The notes under the pieces: generated by a model
What the model was told of the DNA's origin: nothing
Databases searched by the model: none
The model's input: only the letters and a program-made list of their open reading frames with translations
DNA from: Streptomyces drozdowiczii
Lineage (GTDB): Bacteria > Actinomycetota > Actinomycetes > Streptomycetales > Streptomycetaceae
Length of the DNA: 64,000 bases
Assembly (NCBI RefSeq): GCF_026167665.1
Contig: NZ_CP098740.1
Coordinates: 5,580,001 to 5,644,000, forward strand
Reading direction: 5' to 3'
Translations under genes and position numbers: made by a program
Shown: piece after piece, positions 19,144-21,451 of the stretch
Layout of the letters: each line of letters begins with the position of its first letter
Numbering within the stretch: the first letter of the stretch is position 1

Positions 19144-19970
19144 CCCGCGCCCGCCCTGCCGCCCGTCCCGGCCGCGCCCGTCCCGGCCGCGCCCGCCCCG
19201 CCCTCGCCCTGCTCACCGCCGCCGTCCTCGTCCTCGGCGCGGGCGCCTGCGGGGGCAGGGCCACCACCCACCACAAGCCCGGCACCAGCCACGCCGAGGA
19301 CACCGGCAGCAACGGACGGCTCCTGAAGGCCGACGACGGCGACGGCCACCGGCTCCGCCAGGTCGACGCCGACGGCGCCCCCGAGGTGGACCTCGCCGTC
19401 CGGCCCGACTCGGAGGACGGCTGGAACGTCCACCTCACCGTGCGCCACTTCCGCTTCACCCCGGACAGCGTGGGCGGCGGCGCGCTCGCCGGACGCGGCC
19501 ACGCCCGGCTCTTCCTGGACGGCCACCCGCTCGCCCGGGTCTACGGGGCCTGGTTCCACCTCCCCGCATCGCTGCTCCGGGCGGCCGGGGGCGGCACCCG
19601 CCTCACCGCGGGGCTCTACGCGGACGACCACACCGCCTGGGCCGTCGGCTCCGCCCCGGTCCGGGCCGCCGCCACGCTCGGCGACGCCTCCGCGAGCCCC
19701 GATCCCGACGTCACCACGATCGAGTTGGCCATCAAGGACGGCAAGGTGAGCCCCGCCCCCGGCCGCACCGAGATCGAGAAGGGCCGCACCGTGCGCCTGC
19801 GGGTCCGCAGCGACCGGGACGACGTCCTGCACGTCCACGGCTACGACCGGGAGGCGAAGCTCCCCGCCGGACGGACCGTCACGGTCACCTTCACCGCCGA
19901 CCGCACCGGCCTCTTCGAGGTCGAGACCCATGAGTCGGACCTCCTGCTGACCCAGCTCGCCGTCCGGTGA
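19140..19970 (+). CDS. Lipoprotein with C-terminal cupredoxin-like domain
   Basis: A 276-residue protein with a basic lead, a hydrophobic stretch and the lipobox GAGAC (lipidated Cys37). The C-terminal ~100 residues have a cupredoxin-like beta pattern ending FTADRTGLFEVETHE. His231, His233 (LHVHGYD) and His264 are possible metal ligands, but the Cys of a type 1 copper site is absent. It overlaps both neighbours (ATGA at the start, GTGA at the stop), so the three proteins are probably made in fixed proportion. The N-terminus holds a 15-bp tandem duplication (19164-19178 and 19179-19193) that repeats PGRAR. Function is unknown; metal or redox handling outside the membrane is inferred only from the fold. 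Confidence 0.75.
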   Translation: MTRARPAARPGRARPGRARPALALLTAAVLVLGAGACGGRATTHHKPGTSHAEDTGSNGRLLKADDGDGHRLRQVDADGAPEVDLAVRPDSEDGWNVHLTVRHFRFTPDSVGGGALAGRGHARLFLDGHPLARVYGAWFHLPASLLRAAGGGTRLTAGLYADDHTAWAVGSAPVRAAATLGDASASPDPDVTTIELAIKDGKVSPAPGRTEIEKGRTVRLRVRSDRDDVLHVHGYDREAKLPAGRTVTVTFTADRTGLFEVETHESDLLLTQLAVR

Positions 19971-21451
19971 CGGGCGCCCCCGCCCCCGGTGCCGTGCGCG
20001 TCCTCGCCCACGGCATCGGGGCCCAGCACGACCTGCCCCTCTCGCCGTTCTACGCGTTCGCCGGGGCCTTCGCCGCGCTCTTCGTCTCGTTCCTCGCGCT
20101 CGGCCTGCTCTGGTCGGACTCGCGGTTCACGGGCGACACGGCGGGCCGCCCGCTCCCGGCCGCCGTCCAGCGCCTGGCGGACGCCCGCGCCACCCGGCTC
20201 GTCCTCGGCGCGCTCGGCCTGGCCGCCGCGCTCTCCGTCGTGCTGTGGCTGCTCCTCGGGCCCGCCGACCCGGACCGAAATCCGGCGCCCGGCGCGGTCT
20301 ACGTCCTCCTGTGGGTCGGGCTCGTCCCCGCGTCCCTGCTCCTCGGCCCCGTCTGGCGCCCGCTCAACCCCCTGCGCACCCTGCACCTCCTCGCCTGCCG
20401 GGCGCTCGGCCGCGACCCGGAGACCGGCCGACCCCTCCCCGTACGCCTCGGCATGTGGCCCGCCGCGGCCGGGCTCCTCGCCTTCACCTGGCTGGAACTC
20501 GTCGCCCCCGACCCCGCATCGCCCACCGCCCTGCTGGTGTTCCTCGGCGTCTACGCGGCCGTCCACCTCGCGGGCGCTGCGGCCTACGGCGCCCCCTGGT
20601 TCGACCACGCCGACGCCTTCGAGGTGTACTCCGGCCTCCTCGGCAGGCTCTCCCCGTTCGGCCGTGTCCGTGAAGTCCCGTCTGGCCCGCGACGCCCGGC
20701 ACGCCCTCTCGCCGCACCGGCCAACATCCCAAGTACGTCCAGTACGAGGGATGTCGGCCGGCACGCCGAGAGCACGCACCAGACGCCGCGGGCCACGCCC
20801 TACGGGCGTACGACGGGACTTCACGGACACGGCCGCCGCCGCCCCGCCGACGGCCGCCTCGTCGTCCGCTCGCCGTTCAACGGGCTCGACGCCACGCCCC
20901 GGCTCCCCGGACTCGTCGCCACCGTCTGCGTGATGCTCGGCTCCACCGCGTACGACGGCTTCTCCGACGCGCCGCGCTGGATCACCACCGTGCAGACCTC
21001 GGAGCTGGGCCGCACCACCACCGCCACCCTGGGGCTGCTCGGCGCCGTCGCCCTCGTCGCCGCCCTGTACGGGCTCTGCGCCGGCGCCACCCGGCTCGTC
21101 TGCGGAACGCCGGCCCACCCGCTCACCGCGTTCGCCCACTCACTGGTGCCGATCGCCCTCGGCTACCTCGTCGCCCACTACTTCACGCTCTTCGCCACCG
21201 AGGGCCCGCACACCCTCGCGCTGGCGGCCGGCGCGGACCGGCCCACCGTGCCCGAACCGCCCCTGGGACCGGGCGGGGTCGCGACGCTCCAGGTCTTCGC
21301 CATCGTCACCGGCCACGTCCTCGGGGTCGTCGCCGCGCACGACAGGTCCGTCCGGCTCATGCCGCCCCGGCGCGCCGTCATCGGCCAACTCCCGCTGCTC
21401 GTCCTGATGATCGCGTACACCGTGGGCGGCCTCGCCCTGCTCATCGCCTGA
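19967..21451 (+). CDS. Polytopic membrane protein carrying an in-frame palindromic insertion
   Basis: A 494-residue protein with about nine to ten hydrophobic segments; several carry charged or aromatic clusters (WRPLNPLRTLHLLACRALGRD, SPFNGLDATPRLPG). The GTG start overlaps the lipoprotein stop (GTGA). Residues ~232-290 are encoded by the 177-bp palindromic element at 20659-20835 and are Pro/Arg/Gly-rich, unlike the rest. Without it the loop would read from SPFGR almost straight to DGRLVVRSPFNG. The insert falls in a hydrophilic loop, keeps the frame and adds no stop, so the protein may still work. I know no function; it is third in the beta-helix/lipoprotein cassette and is followed 40 bases later by a TetR gene. 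Confidence 0.78.
   Translation: MTGAPAPGAVRVLAHGIGAQHDLPLSPFYAFAGAFAALFVSFLALGLLWSDSRFTGDTAGRPLPAAVQRLADARATRLVLGALGLAAALSVVLWLLLGPADPDRNPAPGAVYVLLWVGLVPASLLLGPVWRPLNPLRTLHLLACRALGRDPETGRPLPVRLGMWPAAAGLLAFTWLELVAPDPASPTALLVFLGVYAAVHLAGAAAYGAPWFDHADAFEVYSGLLGRLSPFGRVREVPSGPRRPARPLAAPANIPSTSSTRDVGRHAESTHQTPRATPYGRTTGLHGHGRRRPADGRLVVRSPFNGLDATPRLPGLVATVCVMLGSTAYDGFSDAPRWITTVQTSELGRTTTATLGLLGAVALVAALYGLCAGATRLVCGTPAHPLTAFAHSLVPIALGYLVAHYFTLFATEGPHTLALAAGADRPTVPEPPLGPGGVATLQVFAIVTGHVLGVVAAHDRSVRLMPPRRAVIGQLPLLVLMIAYTVGGLALLIA
20659..20835. repeat. 177-bp palindromic element (MITE- or RPE-like) inside a coding sequence
   Basis: Perfect 24-bp terminal inverted repeats (20659-20682 and 20812-20835; end CGGCCGTGTCCGTGAAG) flank a second arm pair (20683-20730 with 20748-20795) matching at about 37 of 48 positions. 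The centre AAGTACGTCCAGTACGA is itself partly self-complementary. The right arm holds a small extra hairpin (CGCCC-TA-CGGGCG, about 20796-20808). The whole element folds back on itself, encodes no transposase and is 59 codons long, so it is in frame with its host gene. I recall similar sequences elsewhere in Streptomyces but cannot confirm this here. No second copy was noticed in the window. Confidence 0.85.

Follow-up and report, generated by a model that had tools for sequence, protein, structure and literature searches.

A 177-bp segment interrupts, in frame, a membrane-protein gene in the window (the whole stretch of 64,000 nucleotides that was analysed). It belongs to a non-autonomous (MITE) family that is spread across the genus: it is an insertion, it has many relatives, and the terminal inverted repeats (TIRs) of the family lie mostly between CTA and TAG. 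The elements are short, carry TIRs and no transposase gene, and occur as dispersed copies for which empty sites are found. As an explanation of the whole we consider it likely that IS5 transposases act on the family in trans, that the family changes partner by replacing its ends, and that its core folds from one strand, strand A.

The element (20659..20835, minus strand, bounds as in the initial annotation of this DNA) was characterized by its TIR pair, by DNA search and by RNA folds. The left TIR (20659..20682, plus strand) starts with the outermost GGCCGTGTCCGTGAAGT, which is of the IS5-family TIR type (GGCCGTGTCCGTAAAGT in L228/L229). The right TIR (20812..20835, minus strand) is its perfect complement, so that the 24-nt arms are 100% complementary, as the initial annotation had stated. 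Inside the TIRs lies an imperfect palindrome, whose left arm (20683..20736, plus strand) and right arm (20742..20795, plus strand) are 76% complementary and separated by a spacer of 5 nt; a second imperfect arm pair had been described correctly, except that its arms are 54 nt long and not 48. The conserved core of 101 nt (20689..20789, minus strand; G000:C1:5600689-5600789 on the genome contig, copy L001) matched the covariance model R1 from end to end with 102.4 bits. The RNA folds also contain a small side hairpin, ACGCCC-TAC-GGGCGT (20795..20809, minus strand), between the core and one TIR; it is present on one side of the element only and is conserved in many aligned family copies. The 177 bp hold only the host frame and overlapping mechanical ORFs, in agreement with the description of the element as transposase-free; the ORF list of the element contains no IS5 transposase gene.

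Strand A is defined as the strand with GTGCGTGC and is the more stably folding one. In the window it is the minus strand, which leaves strand B for the host mRNA. The predicted energy of the minus-strand RNA fold is -167.3 kcal/mol (mean of 200 shuffles -89.95, z -15.5, none as low), and that of the plus-strand fold -132.5 kcal/mol (z -13.6, no shuffle as low). Both predicted folds are far beyond chance, and the plus-strand value agrees with the very stable mRNA hairpin expected from the initial reading. A search of the region 20400-21100 against Rfam yielded no family above the gathering score, and two chance-level hits only; a known RNA family was rejected on this ground.

The host gene (19967..21451, plus strand) encodes a 494-aa polytopic membrane protein, which matched no Pfam family at E<=0.001. 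Its 494-codon frame stays open across the element, as had been claimed. Split orthologues were found in 10 genomes other than the source: their halves abut where the window has residues ~233-291, and in the alignment the insert is missing in 10/10. When the ten closest loci were aligned (from 78 fetched), eight were empty and two, L353 and L359, had a short remnant at the site, which in L353 comprises 41 bp at 92.7%. The orthologue alignment that had been proposed as a check thus gave a clear answer: the 177-bp segment is an insertion absent from orthologues. The possibility of a native protein segment was rejected because the orthologues are empty.

The nearest empty allele is L349 of Streptomyces sp. 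CB01249, with 94.8% and 95.6% nucleotide identity on the two flanks. Only 3 nt of L349 correspond to the 177 bp of the window. GGCCG at the junction is common to element and target, and the net gain therefore amounts to 174 bp or 58 codons instead of 177 bp or 59 codons; of the initial statement that the element is exactly 59 codons long, the whole-codon length and the preserved frame hold, and the count does not. The TA duplication usual in the family is missing at this junction, where the target GGCCG continues into the TIR. The orthologue in Streptomyces sp. NBC_00209 (P0001) has the same insert, is open, and shows 94% amino acid identity across the protein. The remnant in L353 and L359 is present although the closer relative L349 is empty, so the host-gene site must have undergone loss, allele exchange or a second insertion.

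DNA search of the source genome (7.39 Mb, single contig) found the element in six further places, and the core covariance model brought the total to at least nine distinct places. R1 represents the 101-nt core and was built from 23 copies. Among relatives, DNA search gave matches in 27/41 genomes. With R1 the core was detected in 125 of 151 sampled Streptomyces genomes, and it was absent from 26/151; over the class, 22/196 sampled genomes had it, seven of these outside Streptomyces, in four genera. The copies L210-L219, from four non-Streptomyces actinobacterial genera, are divergent, and some of them have a GTGCCGYGTCAGCC-type TIR. The family was found in 23 plasmid records (20 Streptomyces, 2 Embleya, 1 Kitasatospora). 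No phage record matched, and a phage origin was rejected. The initial annotation had recommended a search for other copies; they are present in the source genome and in other Streptomyces. Element lengths, taken from script-set ends in 107 copies, were 175 bp (24 copies), 163 bp (21), 173 bp (16), 162 bp (14) and others; these ends misplace some copies, and the window copy was scored as 145 bp. One locus, L164 (1074-1302), has two tandem cores within one outer TIR pair; this stretch contains an N, so an assembly fault is possible. Some copies in genome G018 contain another small palindromic repeat (CTGGGGG...CTCCCAGCGGTAGCTGGGGGAG) within the element arms: both arms of L072, L090 and L096 have it, with the same direction in each arm, and L080 has it in one arm.

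The gatC leader is a second datable insertion of the family. Three full copies, L006 (source genome, 1478-1653, C1:2068161 region), L019 and L025, occupy the interval from the conserved CCCATAGGATTGGG promoter box to the gatC start. They represent three species, and in each the element directly follows a conserved TAGGAT box. Their TIRs differ from one another yet remain paired. The gatC gene was found in 101/101 genomes; of 30 gatC loci, two had a full element, two a hairpin remnant (L324 and L331, from two further species) and 26 were empty.

With script-set ends, TA was found on both flanks in 62/107 family copies, usually within CTAG. Three Streptomyces plasmids, of S. nigrescens (L106), S. 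globisporus C-1027 (L107) and Streptomyces sp. NBC_01334 (L108), carry elements of ~890 bp that have two transposase frames, the same CTA/TAG flanks and a TIR that is GGNCGTGTCCGCAAAGT or closely resembles it. Their transposase matched NF033580 (IS5 family) and PF13340/PF01609 above the cut-offs. We take the IS5-family (NF033580 type) elements with matching TIRs to be an IS427-like subgroup. In genome G018 the GGNCGTGTCCGCAAAGT-type TIR is found both on MITE copies and, beside them, on truncated IS ends. A transposase search gave matches in 112/121 genomes, and 39 of 93 transposase loci inspected had TA-flanked TIRs by script; among these scripted TIRs the pick for L106 was spurious (its true inverted repeat was found separately), and some other low-scoring picks were due to chance. 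At TIR positions 9-18, 37/111 copies matched an IS TIR at >=8/10 (shuffles 1.1%). The match was 10/10 for four types: CCGGCGGATC, CCGCAAAGTC, CCGGAAAGTC and CCGGGCGATC. The other 74/111 copies had no match at 8/10 to any sampled IS TIR, and the large TIR group GTGCCGCGGCAGGC... had no IS partner among the sampled IS TIRs. None of the IS elements inspected has the core beside its TIR. To judge from the sequences, the TIRs are shared with IS5-family elements, and the core is foreign to the IS elements inspected. Simple deletion from the inspected IS5 elements was rejected as the origin of the family, because those elements do not have the core.

A transposon with the same TIRs had been suggested as something to look for. 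For GGNCGTGTCCGCAAAGT and other TIR types, IS5 elements with matching TIRs were found in other Streptomyces; for the exact TIR of the window copy, none was found in the source genome. There the exact TIR pattern has six matches, none in an IS-like arrangement: two are the element's own TIRs, one belongs to copy L004, and three have no visible inverted mate. The source genome has only two weak relatives of the transposase, which weakens the case for a partner there.

TIR types vary between copies while the core stays homologous. Among the seven source-genome copies inspected (L001-L007) the outer 17-mer takes at least six clearly distinct forms, and their cores align throughout. Of 138 sites scored, 116 had a TIR, 20 had none and two were cut by contig ends. 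Cores in different TIRs can be aligned over 101 nt with 79% mean column identity, and R1 matches cores end to end, up to 111 bits. Grouping by TIR positions 9-18 gave 38 TIR groups in all, some of which resulted from misplaced ends; we relied on the nine groups with >=3 copies (76 copies), which are scattered over the core tree. In the tree of these 76 copies the TIR group changes 30 times (minimum 8; shuffled labels 51.0). The tree is weakly resolved (57/99 inner branches open), thus the number of TIR switches is uncertain; even on the well-supported branches alone, seven of the nine groups must have arisen more than once. From these patterns, taken with the matches to IS5-family TIRs, we infer TIR switching and cross-mobilisation.

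What is conserved in the core is its fold: changes are compensatory, and wobble pairs favour one strand. In the core alignment of 23 copies 95.9% of the cells were paired, compared to 82.9% in shuffles. Covariation of the core was strong, at 0.380; shuffles had 0.140 (0/500 as high), and slid structures 0.055-0.088. Changes on both sides were found in 19 of the 38 core pairs. In 132 unique cores the inner stem of strand A had 164 G·T and 11 A·C cells, and the outer stem 729 G·T and 11 A·C cells. Because the outer stem was used to set orientation, strand is tested more fairly on the inner stem. After thinning, the inner stem had 28 G·T versus 4 A·C in 26 clusters (p 1.9e-5), and after further thinning 17 versus 2 in 17 clusters (p 7e-4); other inner-stem mismatches, chiefly G·A, numbered 32 and 28, respectively. 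Tandem G·U pairs of the outer stem are kept in nearly all copies. Mismatches in the TIRs lean the same way, 82:26, counted without thinning for kinship. On strand A the wobble mismatches are of the G·T type, with A·C being rare, so this strand appears to be selected as a folded single strand. Strand would make no difference to a cruciform in double-stranded DNA, but it would to a folded single strand, whether RNA or single-stranded DNA. Part of the strand bias could come from sequence motifs bound by a protein.

At six of 106 loci sampled as DNA a coding frame spans the insertion site. Four of these frames, including that of the window copy, are open, and all four are read with strand B as sense and in one frame (B0). 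The six possible frames are open at similar frequency (43 to 67 of 80). The B0 peptide, RRPARTLAAP-ESPSTSSTRAS-RHAESTHRTP, found 33 proteins; with another copy as query 64 were found, and together 78. In 56 of the 78 proteins the copy is internal (>=40 aa on both sides). The search that yielded 33 proteins used the B0 peptide only and, taken alone, is uninformative about frame. The hosts include an aldehyde dehydrogenase, an FAH hydrolase, kinases, ABC ATPases, SLC13 permeases, AMP-binding enzymes and regulators. Of ten hosts checked, seven have the insert inside a Pfam domain match or flanked by two parts of a single match. The enzyme P0013 is interrupted in its conserved ELGG stretch, so some insert-bearing genes may be non-functional. 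P0021 and P0028, SLC13 permeases of different Streptomyces species, have the insert at the same residue and with diverged ends, suggesting that the inserted form was kept through speciation.

A control search with the five other frames found 38 proteins, 22 of them with internal copies (A2 15, B2 4, B1 2, A1 1, A0 0); B0 had 47. The searches were unequal: the control used 100 words over 268 residues as against 54 for B0, and scored the 7982 best candidates. In a strong subset (>=85% identity over >=95% of the peptide) internal copies numbered 23 for B0, 4 for A2 and 1 for A1. The target's TAG bars frames B1 and A0, and the CTA|G phase is common to B0 and A2, hence the excess of B0 over A2 is the cleanest contrast: 47:15 for internal copies and 23:4 (p 3e-4) in the strong subset, with the control search being the less sensitive one. 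A simpler cause of the B0-over-A2 orientation would be that the mRNA then has fewer strong hairpins. In 37 thinned cores, 107 synonymous changes were counted in B0 versus 105.7 expected. There is thus no sign of peptide selection in B0, and peptide-level selection of this frame was rejected. Two frames other than B0 show a synonymous excess (131 versus 90.9 and 136 versus 100.5 expected). A heuristic codon-composition script, applied without thinning and not relied on, placed the downstream gene antisense to strand A 47 times and sense 21 times (p 0.002), and the upstream gene sense 36 and antisense 43 times.

These observations can be accommodated as follows. IS5-type transposases would act in trans on whichever TIR a copy bears, and the family would change partner by replacing its outermost ~17-20 bp. 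Replacement may proceed in two ways: either copies recombine within the shared core and the second arm is then corrected on the hairpin as template, or one arm is copied directly onto the other. The core would persist because strand A must fold single-stranded, as RNA or single-stranded DNA, at some step. A copy in a coding region would survive if its length and phase keep the frame; the 163- and 175-bp length classes would do so together with a 2-bp duplication (55 and 59 codons). In the host gene of the window the insert contributes a Pro/Arg/Ser/Thr-rich segment, which the protein seemingly tolerates; the orthologue of another strain keeps the same insert open. A broader reading, which we offer tentatively and think possible rather than probable, sees the family as a modular parasite with a core whose strand A is active as a single-stranded structure (RNA or DNA) that spread requires, swappable 17-20 bp ends renewed by hairpin templating, serial IS5 carriers, a range of Streptomyces and a few other actinobacterial genera, and repeated entry into host proteins.

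The pairing of the arms could also come from a process confined to DNA. With script-set ends, flanks other than TA/TA were complementary in 24 copies (TG/CA 14, CA/TG 7, AA/TT 3) and a direct repeat in one. Among the 107 copies the complementary non-TA flanks look as if arm pairing or arm copying had extended into the target. Pairing that reaches the flanking dinucleotides, and TIRs that are perfect despite quick change, would fit quasipalindrome correction, in which hairpin template switching copies arm onto arm and no folded strand is selected. DNA correction is strand-symmetric, yet the thinned inner stem has its 28:4 excess of G·T on strand A, and the outer stem preserves its tandem G·U pairs; as a full account this is rather improbable, but such correction may be the route by which both TIR arms change together. 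The same strand bias, together with the covariation, would be expected if the core were a functional RNA (a small RNA or an mRNA element) with a job in the host and spread by transposition, and the fact that three species have long kept the element in the gatC leader, with TIRs that changed yet are still paired, points in this direction too. We regard this as unlikely, because the searched region matched no Rfam family, the gatC-leader mRNA would carry strand B with its weaker fold, most of the 30 gatC leaders have no element, and 26/151 sampled Streptomyces genomes have no copy.

Even less credit is due to selection of a useful or specially tolerated peptide encoded by one frame, as proposed for the Rickettsia palindromic elements. 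B0 does dominate the internal matches over all five other frames, and is used at 4/4 read-through loci while other frames are open about as often; but its synonymous changes are as expected, the phase is largely set by the CTA|G target, and the difference between B0 and A2 can be an effect of mRNA folding. Separate origin of each TIR type, by internal deletion of several IS5 elements, would account for TIRs and a CTAG/TA target that match those elements. It would leave the likeness of the cores to convergence or sampling, and we find it very unlikely: no core stands next to the TIRs of the inspected IS elements, and convergence is implausible because cores in different TIRs align over their whole length and fit one model. 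The idea that the membrane protein natively has this segment as a variable loop, for which only the open frame would speak, can practically be dismissed, as orthologues do not have the segment and the same DNA is found elsewhere. The reading that we prefer remains a MITE family served in trans by IS5 transposases.

Among known systems, the initial annotation had likened the element to MITEs and Rickettsia palindromic elements, and in kind this was right: in-frame relatives are present inside many annotated Streptomyces proteins. The Rickettsia elements are described as ~150-bp palindromic transposase-free repeats found in frame in many unrelated protein genes (PMC10969869). The Streptomyces family shares with them the transposase-free palindromic repeat in frame in several unrelated protein genes. 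It differs in that its TIRs match IS5-family elements with an evident CTAG/TA target, that it exchanges TIRs round a shared core, and that coding sites are a minority, since only 6/106 sampled copies lie in a spanning coding frame; a preference for coding sites was not seen at these loci, and the likeness drawn here is one of kind. The bacterial MITEs bcr1 (Bacillus cereus), ERIC, NEMIS and YPAL are described as short, mainly intergenic, TIR-bearing and foldable as RNA (PMC3733652, PMC2267715). Compared by description, the Streptomyces family resembles them in being short, in having TIRs, in lying mainly between genes and in being able to fold as RNA, and differs from them by its one core with many TIRs and by wobble pairs that mark one strand. 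With Streptomyces IS5-family elements it shares the outer 17 bp of the TIR and the CTA/TAG flanks; unlike them it has no transposase and is usually 0.13-0.18 kb long, and its core is absent from the IS elements inspected. In the open-access literature we found no Streptomyces MITE family of this kind, and an earlier description elsewhere is possible; in the main text of a 2024 review of prokaryotic MITEs a term search found no mention of Streptomyces.

The initial annotation had described neither the swapping of TIRs around a common core nor the strand specificity of the fold. The family bears on how MITEs outlive their mobilising transposase, and would make partner switching directly testable in a genetically tractable genus. 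With its strand-specific fold, many recent copies and clean empty sites, it is an actinobacterial counterpart to the in-frame Rickettsia elements. Dozens of annotated proteins now hold a transposon-derived segment, which is relevant to gene annotation and structure prediction in Streptomyces.
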